Assembly (NCBI GenBank): GCA_003220595.1
Contig: QHSZ01000069.1
Span: forward strand, 1 to 38,570
Source: Candidatus Rokuibacteriota bacterium
Lineage (GTDB): Bacteria > Methylomirabilota > Methylomirabilia > Rokubacteriales > CSP1-6
Reading direction: 5' to 3'
Length of the DNA stretch: 38,570 bases
The number at the start of each line of letters is the position of its first letter. Positions within the stretch are counted from its first letter, which is position 1. Below, piece by piece: positions 10,078-20,212 of this stretch. A model generated the notes under the pieces. The model worked only from the letters and a program-made list of their open reading frames with translations. It searched no databases and was not told where the DNA came from. Position numbers and translations under genes: made by a program.

Positions 10078-11154
10078 ATGACGAGCCCGATCATCACCGA
10101 AGCGGTCCGGACGCTGATCGAGCGGCGCGACCTCACGCGCATCGAGGCCGCCGCGGCGATGGAGGCGATCATGTCCGGCGCGGCGACGAACGCGCAGATC
10201 GCCGCGTTCTTGACGGCGCTCCGGATGAAGGGCGAGACCGTCGAGGAGCTGATCGGATTCGCCCAGGTGATGCGCCAGAAGGCCGTCCGCGTGCGGACGC
10301 GGACGGACGAGGTCGCCGGGCTCACGGGCACCGACCGCGACGTGCTCATCGACACCTGCGGCACCGGCGGGGACGCGACCGGCACCTTCAACGTCTCGAC
10401 GGCGACGGCGTTCGTCGTCGCCGGCGCGGGGCTCCGCGTCGCCAAGCACGGCAATCGCTCGGTCTCCTCGCTCTGCGGCTCGGCCGACGTGGTCGAGACG
10501 CTCGGCATCAACCTCGAGCTCACGCCGCAGAAGGTCGGCCGCTGCATCGACGAGGTCGGCCTCGGCTTCCTCTACGCGCCCCTCCTGCACACGGCGATGA
10601 AGCACGTGATGGCCGCGCGTCGCGAGATGGGCGTGCGCACGGTGTTCAACATGCTCGGCCCGCTCACGAACCCGGCCGGCGCCAACGCGCAGGTGATCGG
10701 CGTCTACGCCGCCGCCCTCACCGAGCCCCTCGCGCGTGTCCTCGCGGAGCTCGGCACGCACCGGGCCTTCGTCGTCCACGGCGCCGACGGCCTCGACGAG
10801 ATCTCCAACACCGGCGAGAGCCGGATCTCGGAGGTGCGCGAGGGGGTCGTCCGCACCACCACCGTGCGGCCCGAGGACTTCGGGATGCCGCGCGCCTCGA
10901 TCGGCGACCTCCGCGGCGGCGACCGCGAGCAGAACGCCGAGATCATCCGCGCCATCCTCGCCGGCGAGCCCGGGCCCAGGCGCGACATCGTCCTCATGAA
11001 CGCCTCCGCCGCGCTCGTGGCGGGCGGCCGGGCGCGCGACCCGAAAGAGGGCGTGGAGCTGGGGGCCCGCTCGATCGACACGGGCGCCGCCCGCGGCACG
11101 CTCGAGCGCCTCATCGCGGTCTCGCAGGAGCTCGGGCAGGAGAGCGGCGCGTGA
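10078..11154 (+). CDS. trpD: Anthranilate phosphoribosyltransferase
   Basis: DTCGTGGDATGTFNVSTATAFVVAGAGLRVAKHGNRSVSSLCGSADVVETLG; FNMLGPLTNPA. Confidence 0.93.
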   Translation: MTSPIITEAVRTLIERRDLTRIEAAAAMEAIMSGAATNAQIAAFLTALRMKGETVEELIGFAQVMRQKAVRVRTRTDEVAGLTGTDRDVLIDTCGTGGDATGTFNVSTATAFVVAGAGLRVAKHGNRSVSSLCGSADVVETLGINLELTPQKVGRCIDEVGLGFLYAPLLHTAMKHVMAARREMGVRTVFNMLGPLTNPAGANAQVIGVYAAALTEPLARVLAELGTHRAFVVHGADGLDEISNTGESRISEVREGVVRTTTVRPEDFGMPRASIGDLRGGDREQNAEIIRAILAGEPGPRRDIVLMNASAALVAGGRARDPKEGVELGARSIDTGAARGTLERLIAVSQELGQESGA

Positions 11155-11534: not shown

Positions 11535-11564
11535 TTGCGCAGCCCCGGCTCTCAGCCCTAAAAT
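11535..11564 (+). promoter_or_regulatory. Putative sigma70-type promoter (TTGCGC-18bp-TAAAAT) upstream of the GntR gene
   Basis: Hexamers with 18-bp spacer in the intergenic region 11505-11707. Confidence 0.4.
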
Positions 11565-11650
11565 AGCTCGTCGCGGCGCGCCCAACTCCCTATGGGTGTT
11601 GCCTCTGCTTCGTTCCGGCCGGCTTTCTTCCGGGATACGCGTGGCGCGAC

Positions 11651-11666
11651 GGTGTTCTAGAACACC
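11651..11666. promoter_or_regulatory. Perfect 16-bp palindrome GGTGTTCTAGAACACC, candidate GntR/UTRA operator
   Basis: Sequence equals its own reverse complement; 42 bp upstream of the GntR start. Confidence 0.7.
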
Positions 11667-11707
11667 AAGGGGTTTCACTGAGTGGGGTTCACGAGCTTGA
11701 GGTCCGG

Positions 11708-12466
11708 ATGAACGGCAGCGTCCGAGTGAACGGGCGGGTCCCTCGCTACCACCGGATCGCCGAGGTCCTGCGCGAACGGATCCACGAGGGCGAGCTCCGT
11801 CCCGGCGCCCGGCTCGACAACCAGCGACGGCTCGCGAAGAGCTTCGGCGTGACGCTGATGACGCTGCGCCAGGCGCTCGAGCTGCTCGAGCGCGAGCACC
11901 TGATCTCGCGCCGCCACGGCCTCGGGACGTTCGTCGCGGCGCCCTCCATCGACTACGACATCCTCCAGCTGCGCCGGTTCGCCGGCGACCTCCAGGCCAA
12001 GGGCGAGCAGGTGACGACGCGGCTCGTCGGGACGAAGTTCGCGCTCGCCGACCACCGCGTCTCGGACGCGCTCGGGCTCGGGCCCGGCGCGCGCGTGCTC
12101 GTGCTGGAGCGGCTCCGCCTCGTGGACGGCCACCCCATGAGCCTCCAGCGCTCGTTCCTGCCCGCGCCGATCGGCGAGGAAGTCGTCCGCGCGGACCTGG
12201 CCCGCACGCCGCTGCACAGGGCGCTCGAGGTCAGACTGGGTCTCGTCGTCGAGTCCGCGCGCGAGACGGTGTCCGCGGTGCGCCTCGAGCGCAGCGAGGC
12301 GCGCGAGCTCAGCTGCCGGACCGGGGCGCCCGCGTTCGAGTCCGAGCGGGTGTCGTACGCGGCGGGCGGCGCGCCCGTCGTCTTCGACCGCGTGTTCATC
12401 CCGGGCGATCGCTTCCGGATCACCCGGGAGCTCCACTACGAGTCCCTCCAAGGAGCGACCTCATGA
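11708..12466 (+). CDS. GntR-family transcriptional regulator with UTRA domain (HutC/FarR subfamily)
   Basis: RYHRIAEVLRERIHEGELRPGARLDNQRRLAKSFGVTLMTLRQALELLEREHLISRRHGLGTFVA winged HTH; C-terminal UTRA-like region. Confidence 0.92.
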   Translation: MNGSVRVNGRVPRYHRIAEVLRERIHEGELRPGARLDNQRRLAKSFGVTLMTLRQALELLEREHLISRRHGLGTFVAAPSIDYDILQLRRFAGDLQAKGEQVTTRLVGTKFALADHRVSDALGLGPGARVLVLERLRLVDGHPMSLQRSFLPAPIGEEVVRADLARTPLHRALEVRLGLVVESARETVSAVRLERSEARELSCRTGAPAFESERVSYAAGGAPVVFDRVFIPGDRFRITRELHYESLQGATS

Positions 12467-13242
12467 AGATCCTGGTGGCCATCAAGCAGGTGCCCGACAC
12501 GGCGACGCAGGTGAAGGTCGGCGCCGACCCGCGCCTGATCGACACCGCGGGCATCACCTGGATCGTCTCGCCCTACGACGAGTTCGCCGTCGAGGAGGCC
12601 CTGCGGATCAAGGAGAAGCGCGGCCAGGGCGAGGTGGTGGCCGTGTCCCTCGGCCCCGAGCGCGTGAAGGAAGCGCTGCGCTCGTGCCTCGCGATGGGCT
12701 GCGACCGCGCGCTCCACCTGAACGACGCGGCGTGGAACGGCGCCGACACGCTCGCGACGGCCCGGGCGCTCGCCGCCGTCATCAAGCAGGAGCAGCCGCA
12801 GCTCGTGCTCTGCGGGCGGCAGGCGATCGACGACGACATGGGTGCGGTGACGGCGCAGCTCGCCGAGCTGCTCGGCTGGCCGTGCGCGTCCTGGATCATG
12901 GAGGAGGCGGTGGACGCGGAGGGCACGACGGTCCGGGCGGCCCGTCAGGTCGAGGGCGGCCTGGAGGTCTTCGACCTCCCGCTCCCCGCGGTCCTCGCGG
13001 CGCAGAAGGGGCTCAACGAGCCGCGCTACCCGACGCTGAAGGGCATCATGGGCGCGAAGAAGAAGGAGATCCGCGACGTGAAGGCCGCCGACCTCGGGCT
13101 CGGCGCCGAGCCCTCGCAGCTCTCGGTCGTCGGGCTCGAGGCGCTCCCACCCCGTCCCCCGGGGCGCATCATCCAGGGCGACGTGCCGACGGCGGTCAAG
13201 GAGCTGGTGCGCGCGCTCCGTGAAGACGCGAAGGCCATCTGA
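12463..13242 (+). CDS. etfB: Electron transfer flavoprotein beta subunit
   Basis: MKILVAIKQVPDTATQVKV; GRQAIDDDMGAVTAQLAELLGWP; ATGA overlap. Confidence 0.94.
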   Translation: MKILVAIKQVPDTATQVKVGADPRLIDTAGITWIVSPYDEFAVEEALRIKEKRGQGEVVAVSLGPERVKEALRSCLAMGCDRALHLNDAAWNGADTLATARALAAVIKQEQPQLVLCGRQAIDDDMGAVTAQLAELLGWPCASWIMEEAVDAEGTTVRAARQVEGGLEVFDLPLPAVLAAQKGLNEPRYPTLKGIMGAKKKEIRDVKAADLGLGAEPSQLSVVGLEALPPRPPGRIIQGDVPTAVKELVRALREDAKAI

Positions 13243-13256
13243 GGGGGCGGGAGACC

Positions 13257-14233
13257 ATGGCAAGCGCTTTCTGGTGCATCGTCGAGGACGATCGGCAGGG
13301 CGCCCCGAAGAAGGTGATGGCCGAGGTGCTCGGCGCGGCGTCGCGCCTCGGGGGCGGCCCGGTGGAGGCCGTGTGGCTCACCGACAAGGCGAGCGACGCG
13401 GGCCTGAAGCAGCTCGGCGAGTGGGGCGCCGGCAAGGTCTGGCTCCTCGAGAACGCGGGGTTGGCGCCCTACCGCAGCGAGGTGTGGGCGGGTGCCCTCG
13501 CCGACCTCGCCGCCCAGCAGTCGCCGCGCGCAATTTTCGGCGCCGTGACAAGCCGCCAGCGCGAGCTCGTGGCGCGCCTCGCGGCGCGGCTCGGCGTCGG
13601 GCTCGCCGCCGACTGCGTGGCCCTCGCCATGAACGGCGACACGCTCGTCGCAACGCGGCCGGTGTACGCGGGCAAGCTCATCGCGCGGGTGACCTGGGCG
13701 AAGGGCCCGTGGGTGGCGACGCTCCGGCCGAACGTGTTCCGTCCCGCCGAAGCGCAACCGGGCAAGACCGCCGCCGTCGAGCGGCCCGCGGTGTCGCTGC
13801 CGCCCGCCGTGATGAAGTTCGTCGAGCGGCGCGAGGAGGTGTCGACCGGGCTCCCTGAGCTGACCGAGGCCGAGATCGTGATCTCCGGCGGCCGCGGCAT
13901 GAAGGGGCCCGAGAACTACGTGATCCTCGAGGACATGGGGCGCGTCATCGGCGCCGCCGTCGGCGCCTCGCGCGCGGCGGTGGACGCGGGCTGGCGCCCG
14001 CACCGCTTCCAGATCGGCCAGACGGGCCGGACGATCTCGCCGAAGCTCTACCTGGGCTTCGGCGTCTCGGGCGCGATCCAGCACCTCGCCGGGATGCGGA
14101 CGTCGAAGATCATCGTCGCCGTGAACAAGGACGCGGAGGCGCCGATCTTCAAGATCGCCGACTACGGCATCGTGGCCGACCTCTTCGAGGTGGTGCCGGA
14201 GCTGACGAAGGAATTCAAGAAGCTTCTGGAAAA

Positions 14234-14237
<4 letters not shown>
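13257..14237 (+). CDS. etfA: Electron transfer flavoprotein alpha subunit
   Basis: [65 protein letters not shown]. Confidence 0.94.
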
Positions 14238-15376
<1,139 letters not shown>

Positions 15377-15392: not shown

Positions 15393-17042
15393 ATGAGCGA
15401 CACGCGCGAGCCGGAGGCGAAGAGACGGGGGTCCGTCGGGTCGAAGACGCCCGAGCGCTCGGTGCGGTTCGAGTCGCTCTCGGGCATCCCGATCAAGGCG
15501 CTCTACACGCCGGCGGACCTGACGGGCAAGTCGTACGAAGAGCGGCTGGGCGCCCCGGGCGAGTATCCGTTCACCCGGGGCGTCTATCCGACGATGTACC
15601 GCGGCCGGCCCTGGACCATGCGCATGTTCGCGGGCTTCGGCTGCCCCGAGGACACGAACGCGCGCTTCAAGTACCTGCTCGCGCAGGGCCAGACGGGCCT
15701 CTCGACCGCCTTCGACATGCCCGCGCTGATGGGCTACGACGCCGACCATCCGCGCGCCCGCGGCGAGGTGGGCAAGGAGGGCGTCTCGATCTCGACGCTC
15801 GACGACTTCGAGCGCCTCTTCGCCGACATCCCGCTCGGCGAGGTCACGACGTCCATGACGATCAACTGCACGGCGTCGGTCGCCCTCGCCATGTACCTCG
15901 TGGTCGCCGAGAAGCAGGGCGTCGCGTGGGACCGGGTCGGCGGCACCATGCAGAACGACATGCTCAAGGAATTCATCGCTCAGAAGGAGTGGATCTGTCC
16001 GCCGGAGCCCGCGGTGCGCATCGTCACCGACATGATCGAGTTCACCTCGAAGCACGTGCCGCGCTTCAATCCCGTCTCGATCTCGGGCTATCACATCCGC
16101 GAGGCGGGGTCCACGGCGGTGCAGGAGCTGGCGTTCACGCTGGCCGACGGGCTCGCCTACGTCGACGCCGCGCTCGCGCGCGGGCTCGACGTGGACAGCT
16201 TCGCGCCGCGGCTCAGCTTCTTCTTCGACATCCACAACGACTTCTTCGAGGAGATCGCGAAGCTCCGCGCCGCCCGCCGCATGTGGGCGCGCTTCATGAA
16301 GGAGCGCTTCGGCGCGAAGAAGCCGGAGTCCATGCGGCTCCGCACCCACACGCAGACCGCCGGGGTCTCCGCCACCGCCCAGCAGCCGCTCAACAACGTC
16401 GCGCGCGTCGCCATCCAGGCGCTCGCCGCGGTCCTCGGCGGCGCCCAGTCGCTCCACACCAACTCCTACGACGAGACGTGGGCGCTGCCCACCGAGGACG
16501 CGGTCACGGTCGCGCTCCGGACCCAGCAGATCATCGCCGAGGAGACGGGCGTGGCGCTCACGATCGACCCACTCGGCGGCTCGTACTACCTCGAGAAGCT
16601 CACCGACCAGATGGAGGAGGCGGCGCTCGGGTACGTCCGGACGATCGACGCGATGGGCGGCATGATCCGCGCGATCGACGCGGGCTACCCGCAGAAGGAG
16701 ATCGCCGATGCCGCCTACCGCTACCAGCTGATGGACGACCGGGGCGAGAAGGTCGTGGTCGGGGTCAACAAGTACGTGATGAAGGAAGAGCGCCCGATCA
16801 ATTTCCTCAAGATCGACGAGACGGTGGAGCTAGAGCAGATCGAGAAGGTCCGGCGGTTCAAGGCGTCGCGGGACGCGCGTCGGGTCGAGCGGCGGCTCGC
16901 GCAGCTCGCGGACGCCTGCACGAACGGCCAGAACCTGATGCCCGTGCTCATCGACGCCGTGCGCGACTACGCGAGTCTCGGCGAGGTGGCCGACGTCTAT
17001 CGCCGGGTGTTCGGCCTGTACCGCGAACCGATCATCTTTTAG
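15393..17042 (+). CDS. Adenosylcobalamin-dependent acyl-CoA mutase large subunit, isobutyryl-CoA mutase (IcmA)-like
   Basis: [66 protein letters not shown]; Phe79 and Gln197 at the specificity positions. Confidence 0.88.
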
Positions 17043-17142: not shown

Positions 17143-18216
17143 ATGAGCGAGCCGATCAGGATCACCCGGGCCGCGACGAAGAAGTCGAAGCCGAAGGACG
17201 CCGAGCTGAGCTTCGGCACGGTCTTCACGGACCACATGTTCGTGGTGGACTTCCAGGAGGAGAAGGGGTGGTACGACCCGCGGATCGAGCCGTACGGGCC
17301 CTTCAGCCTGGATCCGGCGTGCGCCGTCCTCCACTACGCGCAGGCGGTCTTCGACGGCCTCAAGGCCTTCCGCGGCAAGGACGGGCGGGTCCGGCTGTTC
17401 CGGCCGCAGAAGCACCTCGAGCGCCTCAACAACTCGGCCCGACGCCTGTGCATCCCGCCGGTCGAGCCGGAGCTCGCCCTGCGGGCACTCGTCGAGCTGG
17501 TGCGCCTCGAGATGGACTGGGTGCCCTCCACGGTCGGCACGGCGCTCTACATCCGCCCGACGATCATCGCCAGCGAGCCGTTCCTCGGCGTTCGGCCGGC
17601 GCGGTCCTACATCTACTACGTCATCCTGTCGCCCGTAGGAGCCTACTATCCCGAGGGCATGAACCCCGTGAAGATCCTGGTCGCGGACAAGTACGTCCGC
17701 GCCGTCGAGGGCGGCGTGGGGGGCGTGAAGACCGGCGTCAACTACGCGTCGAGCCTCTATGCCGCCGAGGAGGCGAAGCACCAGGGGTTCACGCAGGTGC
17801 TCTGGCTCGACGGGCGCGAGCGGAAGTACCTCGACGAGGTGGGCACGATGAACATCATGCTGAAGATCGGTGACGAGGTGATCACGCCGTCGCTCGGCCA
17901 CGGCACGATCCTGCCCGGCGTCACCCGCGACTCGGCGCTCACGCTGATGCGCGAGTGGGGGCTCCGCGTCTCGGAGCGCGAGGTCTCGATCGACGAGGTC
18001 GCGCGGGCCGCCCGTCAGGGCGCGCTCAAGGAGGTCTGGGGCACGGGCACGGCCGCGGTCATCTCGCCCGTCGGCGAGCTCGCCCACCGCGGCGAGCGGA
18101 TCGTCATCAACCAGGGCAAGATCGGCGAGCTGACGCAGAAGCTCTACGACGCGATCGTCGGCATCCAGTACGGCACGGCGCCCGACACCCACGGCTGGAC
18201 CGTGGGCGTCGAGTAG
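17143..18216 (+). CDS. ilvE: Branched-chain amino acid aminotransferase
   Basis: [71 protein letters not shown]. Confidence 0.92.
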
Positions 18217-18224
18217 GGGGAGCG

Positions 18225-18647
18225 GTGGAGACCTGTGTCTTCTGCAAGATCCGCGACGGCCAGATCCCGGCGATGAAGGTCTTCGAGGACAAGCGAACGC
18301 TCTGCATCATGGATATCAACCCGATCAGCCACGGGCACTGTCTGGTGCTCCCCAAGACGCACGCGGCGACGATCTTCGACGCGGACGCCGCCGACCTGCA
18401 GGCCGCGATGGCGACCGCGAAGCGGGTCGCCATCGCCCTCAAGCAGGCGCTCGAGCCGGAGGGGCTCAACATCCTCCAGGCCAACGGCCCCGCCGCCTTC
18501 CAGTCGGTGCCGCACTTCCATCTGCACCTGATCCCTCGCTGGATGCGCGACGGCAAGGGGTTCGACTGGAAGCTCTCGCCGGGCAACCGGACGGAGATCG
18601 CGAAGACGGGCGAGCAGCTCCGTGCGGCCCTGGGCGGCCGCGCGTGA
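18225..18647 (+). CDS. HIT-family protein (nucleotidyl hydrolase/transferase)
   Basis: [47 protein letters not shown] motif; GTG start. Confidence 0.92.
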
Positions 18648-19051
18648 TGGCCGAGCGCACGGTGCGCGTCGTCGTCGCCAAGCCGGGCCTCGACGGCCAC
18701 GACCGCGGGGCGAAGATCGTCGCGCGCGCCCTGCGGGACGCGGGGTTCGAGGTGATCTACACGGGCCTCCACCAGACGCCCGAGCAGATCGTCACGACGG
18801 CCGTCCAGGAGGACGCGGACGCGATCGGGCTCAGCGTGCTCTCCGGCGCCCACAACTACCTCTTCAAGCGCGTGCTCGAGCTCCTGAAGGAGAAGGGGGC
18901 CGAAGACGTGGTGGTCTTCGGCGGCGGCATCATCCCGCCCGAGGACATCGCCGCGCTCAAGACGCTGGGCGTGAAGGAGCTGTTCACGCCCGGCACCTCC
19001 ACCCAGGACATCGTCCGCTTCGTCCGCCAGCACGTCCGCGCGGCGGTCTAG
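18647..19051 (+). CDS. Cobalamin-binding small subunit of acyl-CoA mutase (IcmB/MCM C-terminal domain-like)
   Basis: [41 protein letters not shown] with the DxHxxG cobalamin motif; [10 protein letters not shown]; alternative GTG start at 18644. Confidence 0.92.
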
Positions 19052-19066
19052 ACGCCGCGCCGTGTG

Positions 19067-20212
19067 ATGGACTTCGAGCTGAGCGACGACCAGCAGCGGA
19101 TCCGCGCGGTCGCGCGCGAGTTCGCGGACGCCGAGCTCGGCGACAAGATCGCGCCCTATGACGCGCGCCACGAGTTCGCGTGGGAGATCGTGAAGAAGCT
19201 CGGCCCGCTGGGCTTCCTGGGCGTGCTGGTGCCGGAGGACTACGGTGGGGCCGGGCTCGACTACGTCTCGTACGCGCTGATCGTCGAAGAGCTGAACCGC
19301 GGCGACGCCTCGGTCGGCATCACCATGTGGGCCCACAACTCGCTCTGCACCAACCACATCGCCCTCTTCGGCTCGCCCGCGCAGAAGCAGACGTACCTGC
19401 CGCGCCTGGCCTCGGGCGCGGTGCTCGGCGCCTGGGGGCTCACCGAGCCCGGCTCCGGCTCCGACGCCGCCGCGCTGCGCACGCGCGCGGTGGAACGCGA
19501 CGGCGCGTGGGTGCTGAACGGCACCAAGGCCTTCATCACGAACGCGTCGGTGGGGGAGATCGCCGTCGTCCTGGCGCGGACGGATGCCGAGAAGAAGTCG
19601 CGGGGCATCTCGGCGTTCATCCTGGAACGGGGGACGCCCGGGTTCAGCGCCGGCACGCCCTATCGGAAGCTCGGGCTCCACGCCTCGGACACCGCCGAGC
19701 TGGTGCTCGAGGATGCCCGGGTACCTGCCGCGAACCTCCTCGGCGCGCGGGGCGCGGGCTTCGCGCAGGCGATGACGGTCCTCGAGGGCGGGCGGATCGC
19801 GATGGCGGCGATGGCCGTCGGCATCGCGCAGGCCGCCGTGGATCAGGCCGTCCGGTACATGAAGCAGCGGAGCGCATTCGGCAAGACACTCGCCGAGTTC
19901 AACGGCCTGCAGGGGATGCTCGCGGATCTCGTGACCGAGGTCGAGGTCGCCCGCCTGCTGACCCTGCGCGCGGCGTGGCTCAAAGACGAGGGGCGGCCGG
20001 CGATGCACGCGGCGGCGATGGCCAAGCTCTTCGCCTCGGAGACCGCGATGAAGGCCGCCACCCAGGCCGTGCAGATCCACGGCGGCGCCGGGTACATCGC
20101 CGAGTTCCCCGTCGAGCGCATCTTCCGCGACGCGAAGCTCACCGAGATCGGTGAGGGGACGTCCGAGATCCAGCGCCTGGTGATCGCCCGGGAGATCCTC
20201 GGGTTCTCGTGA
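19067..20212 (+). CDS. Acyl-CoA dehydrogenase
   Basis: [61 protein letters not shown]; alternative GTG start at 19064. Confidence 0.93.

Follow-up and report, generated by a model that had tools for sequence, protein, structure and literature searches.

The 16-bp palindrome GGTGTTCTAGAACACC, with its core GTTCTAGAAC, is almost certainly, on comparative evidence, the operator that serves the GntR/HutC regulator encoded next to it. In the full explanation, to which we assign a probability of roughly 0.88, the regulator would bind this site through NagR-like contacts, would repress itself and the operon that follows by a roadblock, and would be released by a metabolite. What is new is a predicted variant of the GntR/HutC operator type whose change of specificity finds a structural explanation in the comparative data. 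The features of the window (the whole 38,570-nucleotide stretch of Candidatus Rokuibacteriota DNA analysed) that bear on this reading are as follows.

11535..11540, plus strand: -35-like hexamer TTGCGC; most of 25 orthologues keep CTTGC.
11559..11564, plus strand: -10-like hexamer TAAAAT after an 18-bp spacer; TA-rich hexamer conserved in 25 orthologues.
11571..11707, plus strand: predicted 5' leader, placed from the promoter position and the leader alignment.
11651..11666, no strand assigned: predicted operator palindrome, from its sequence, its uniqueness in the genome and its conservation in orthologues.
11699-11702, plus strand: ribosome-binding site GAGG, within the predicted leader.
11708..12466, plus strand: GntR/HutC-type regulator (GntR winged HTH and UTRA, 252 aa), from Pfam, PDB matches and residue alignment.
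12463..13242, plus strand: etfB, first structural gene of the operon (Pfam/NCBIfam; conserved after GntR).
13257..14237, plus strand: etfA (Pfam/NCBIfam; gene order conserved).
14234..15376, plus strand: acyl-CoA dehydrogenase, ACAD (Pfam/NCBIfam; gene order conserved).
15393..17042, plus strand: methylmalonyl-CoA-mutase-type large subunit (Pfam/NCBIfam; gene order conserved).
17143..18216, plus strand: branched-chain aminotransferase, IlvE type II (above the curated cut-off; gene order conserved).
18644..20212, plus strand: B12-binding mutase subunit (18644-19051) and second ACAD (19064-20212); order conserved.

Read from the window sequence, the palindrome is perfect over all 16 bp, and each half-site, numbered from the centre, reads G-7 T-6 G-5 T-4 T-3 C-2 T-1. 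The sequence-only reading had placed it 42 bp before the regulator start; this is exact, with 41 bases separating the palindrome from the ATG at 11708. A search of the window allowing up to 3 mismatches returns it as the sole match (0.05 expected from shuffles). In the 4.06-Mb genome, pattern searches find the central 9-mer GTTCTAGAA and the core GTTCTAGAAC once each (the reversed control of the 9-mer gave 6 and 13), and no second GTTCTAGAA marks a wider regulon. The genome-wide scan proposed earlier for the motif at further genes yields one exact site in this genome, beside looser matches that differ at two or three positions, and not a multi-gene regulon: whereas NagR (YvoA) of Bacillus subtilis and DasR of Streptomyces govern an amino-sugar regulon, the present regulator has one local target.

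The regulator carries the N-terminal GntR winged HTH and the UTRA effector domain that define GntR/HutC proteins, both above cut-off (PF00392, E 2.2e-18; PF07702, E 2.3e-29), and its best PDB matches are DasR and NagR/YvoA. The gene content first read as GntR, etfB, etfA, ACAD, mutase and ilvE is borne out by Pfam/NCBIfam. Genomic neighborhood analysis shows the order GntR-etfB-etfA-ACAD-mutase-ilvE-HIT-mutase B12 subunit-ACAD to be kept in 16 relatives, as far as each locus reaches, and the B12-binding mutase subunit and second ACAD are probably the distal genes of the operon. Directly upstream, in the same direction and in many relatives, lies a functionally unrelated trpD-like anthranilate phosphoribosyltransferase gene (10078-11154). 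At two loci (L122, G038:C239; L119, G063:C210), the regulator gene seems broken or frame-shifted and the operator is intact, which could be an assembly error.

Phylogenetic footprinting strongly supports the autoregulatory operator proposed in the sequence-only reading, which would have fallen had the motif been absent upstream of orthologous regulators. Public genomes yielded 26 loci in a scan, almost all of them labelled Rokubacteria/Rokuibacteriota, plus a single Methylomirabilota locus and a distant match in a proteobacterium; GTTCTAGAAC occurs within ∼150 bp before the matched region in 24/24 scanned orthologues with upstream sequence. Across 25 aligned orthologous leaders, the eleven contiguous columns GTTCTAGAACA are invariant (25/25), and from the -10 to the palindrome the mean majority identity is 55%. 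Within the phylum, an orthologue is present in 53 of the 95 genomes surveyed. Two are cut at the contig start (G052, G068); the remaining 51, with intact upstream DNA, carry either GTTCTAGAAC (47/51) or GTTCTAGAAG (4/51; G056, G060, G082, G093), and all 51/51 match at least 9/10 of the core. By coordinate comparison, the exact 11-mer GTTCTAGAACA stands beside the orthologue in 46 genomes, and the G078 orthologue has the variant GTTCTAGAACT in its place; the site there reads GTTCTAGAACTCT. In one further genome (G074), no orthologue was found and the site stands at the end of a contig. Additional exact sites in G038, G054, G080 and G088 fall inside ORFs or at their margins and resemble background.

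The structure of NagR bound to DNA indicates how such a site would be read: Arg38 contacts G-5, Arg48 contacts G-4, the latter contact being made by the equivalent arginine in FadR and AraR, and the carbonyl of wing Gly69 contacts G-7 (PMC4333415). In the HutC subfamily, the Arg38-equivalent position correlates with one half-site base (PMC4494728). Residue alignment places Arg40, Leu50 and Gly71 of the present regulator at NagR positions Arg38, Arg48 and Gly69 (NagR numbering hereafter). Position 38 is Arg in 32/33 orthologues, wing Gly69 is kept in 33/33, and position 48 is Leu in 33/33, so that the arginine at the N-terminus of the recognition helix (NagR Arg48, FadR Arg45) is missing throughout. 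Leu48 occurs in none of the other UTRA proteins retrieved from the phylum, almost all of which have Arg48. Operator base -4 is T, not G, in all orthologues, a departure from the usual pattern that is expected because Arg48, the reader of G-4, is replaced by Leu. The retained arginine at position 38 would thus read G-5 and the wing glycine the flank, and the leucine would pair with T-4. Against this scheme, three orthologues that keep Arg38 nevertheless have a degenerate right half-site, with C at -5.

A reciprocal change is found within the same lineage. The sole other UTRA regulator of the source genome is a His38/Arg48 protein with AGGTGTCTAGACATCC before its gene. This paralogue (L123, G000:C231; ORF 2220-1459, minus strand; palindrome at ∼2208-2222 upstream) lies between an acyl-CoA dehydrogenase gene and a hydantoinase/oxoprolinase-like gene. 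It shares with the present regulator the protein family, the CTAG centre, a single operator before its own gene and an acyl-CoA dehydrogenase neighbor, but it shows the opposite combination, His38/Arg48 with TGTCTAGACA. This operator, T-5 G-4, characterizes the His38/Arg48 paralogue clade, in which the great majority of ∼44 proteins carry it; three of the T-5 G-4 sites have an altered CTAG centre (TGTCCGGACA or TGTCAGGACA). An Arg38/Arg48 protein (L246) with TATGGATATAACCATA upstream, hence G-5 G-4, is a single case and only suggestive. UTRA proteins with Val at both 38 and 48 would have offered a further contrast, and no convincing operator was found for them; this group (L235, L237, L242, L243, L245) abuts or overlaps the upstream gene.

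The reciprocal residue-base pattern agrees with the structural prediction. Its Fisher p-value is very small but ignores relatedness and is not independent evidence; the switch amounts to about one phylogenetic contrast, two clades plus NagR/DasR, with few independent events. The balance tips modestly towards a model in which two HutC paralogues of one lineage, having undergone reciprocal changes (Arg38/Leu48 with G-5 T-4; His38/Arg48 with T-5 G-4), would use insulated CTAG operators, a Leu48-thymine readout replacing the near-universal Arg-G contact of GntR proteins. For GntR recognition, the pair amounts to a ‘natural experiment’: a recognition helix without its arginine, a matching base change, and a paralogue with the reverse change. 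If binding tests agree, residues 38 and 48 could predict the operators of other GntR proteins. For this soil lineage, which is widespread and uncultured, and for its acyl-CoA/branched-chain operon, the system also supplies a testable pair of operator and regulator.

Like NagR and DasR, the present system combines a GntR winged HTH and UTRA protein with a CTAG-centred palindrome, and Arg38, wing Gly69 and the anion-binding arginines 133/135 are common to all three. Unlike the HutC-subfamily consensus NyGTMTAKACNy, in which 4 nt separate GT and AC (Suvorova et al., PMC4494728), the present site has GT and AC 6 nt apart, although it shares the TA-centred palindrome, T-3/A+3 and a single location near the regulator gene; where the HutC operator form is GTNTANAC (GTMTAKAC), the window has TGTTCTAGAACA, with T at -4. 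A shifted GT-6-AC spacing was considered and set aside, since the TA-centred register is simpler and leaves the site one base per half-site off dre. The protein's GntR/HutC membership rests on its domains, and its predicted operator is a deviant of the subfamily type.

The position of the site bears on how repression would work. The promoter thought plausible at 11535-11564 is conserved across orthologues but is not called by a consensus promoter scan of the window, and its assignment therefore rests on conservation: in the 25 aligned leaders, a TTGC-(about 18)-TANNAT element precedes the palindrome by 80-102 bp, with the -35 missing from a few. Transcription would then start near 11571. Counted from there, the operator would occupy roughly +81 to +96 of the leader; it lies beside the ribosome-binding site, some 90 bp beyond the -10, and not at the promoter. 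A regulator dimer bound to the palindrome 41 bp upstream of its own gene would repress that gene and the closely following same-strand etfBA-ACAD-mutase-ilvE genes. It would most likely do so by blocking elongating RNA polymerase, leaving the promoter uncovered: a roadblock is proposed because the site lies ∼80-95 bp past the predicted start, close to the ribosome-binding site, and is favored over promoter occlusion because the spacing is variable and the operator distant from the promoter. This position in the predicted leader suggests roadblock repression. Between promoter and operator, a CAAGTTCCCTTCGGCGTTG-like segment (11582-11610) is moderately conserved in many orthologues.

Three other explanations were weighed. 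An unrelated regulator could bind the palindrome and control the etf/ACAD operon, with the GntR gene merely lying in between; CTAG-centred palindromes are known for several families, and the site adjoins the whole operon. The distribution of the site argues otherwise. In G092 and G094, from other families of the same order, etfBA-ACAD is present (EtfB 77% identical) and the regulator absent, and no site occurs there (best match 7/10), whereas in G093, from another family, a 57%-identical regulator stands before a thiolase and retains AGAGTTCTAGAAGTCC. The site is therefore conserved upstream of orthologous regulators and tracks the regulator, not its neighbors, as an autoregulatory operator should. 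One site per genome is also what a local self-repressor predicts, and the base change fits the residue change of the GntR protein itself, which leaves binding by an unrelated protein improbable.

Still less probable is that the element acts as RNA, with GGUGUU-CUAG-AACACC folding into a hairpin of the 5' leader that affects translation or decay. Its place near the ribosome-binding site would suit such a role, and a 6-bp stem can form in the window, but the sequence is invariant, loop included, instead of covarying; 15/25 leaders have A/A at the third pair, and the outer pairs change independently. RNAalifold predicts no pairs in the aligned leaders and there is no Rfam match, and the hairpin was rejected for want of structure, covariation and family. 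Equally slight is the chance of a true dre-type HutC operator read through two Arg-G contacts as in DasR/NagR, despite these being the best PDB matches and despite identity with TGGTCTAGACCA at 10 of the 12 central bases. Site and dre share G-7, T-6, G-5, T-3, C-2 and T-1, and the palindromic NagR half-site is identical except for T in place of G at -4; it is exactly there that the window half-sites read GTGT where dre requires G-7 T-6 G-5 G-4, and G-4 and Arg48 (Leu) are missing together in all orthologues. The dre analogy drawn from the sequence thus holds only for the CTAG centre and the size and fails for G-4 and Arg48. The preferred reading remains binding by the adjacent regulator.

In the effector domain, the two anion (phosphate)-binding arginines (NagR 133 and 135) are kept in 33/33 orthologues, but the sugar contacts of the GlcN-6-P/GlcNAc-6-P pocket are replaced, for the most part by hydrophobic residues. 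Compared with NagR/DasR, the present regulator has, besides Leu for Arg48, Glu145 changed to Gln, Tyr167 to Leu, Glu222 to Val and Tyr228 to Ile; the same replacements occur in its orthologues, together with Val/Ala for Ser226. These residues suggest a ligand that is anionic and has a hydrophobic body; the pocket would be compatible with a branched-chain 2-oxo acid, a short acid or an acyl-CoA, and not with an amino-sugar phosphate. The acyl-CoA or branched-chain ligand conjectured earlier becomes a little more plausible on this basis, and a small anionic metabolite of acyl-CoA/branched-chain breakdown would release the regulator from its operator.

In one related genus, to which G056 and G060 belong, a second GTTCTAGAAC lies 20-30 bp before an Amidohydro_2 gene (L107:2391-2400 and L108:2417-2426), at the same relative position in both genomes, and this gene is possibly a lineage-specific second target of the regulator.
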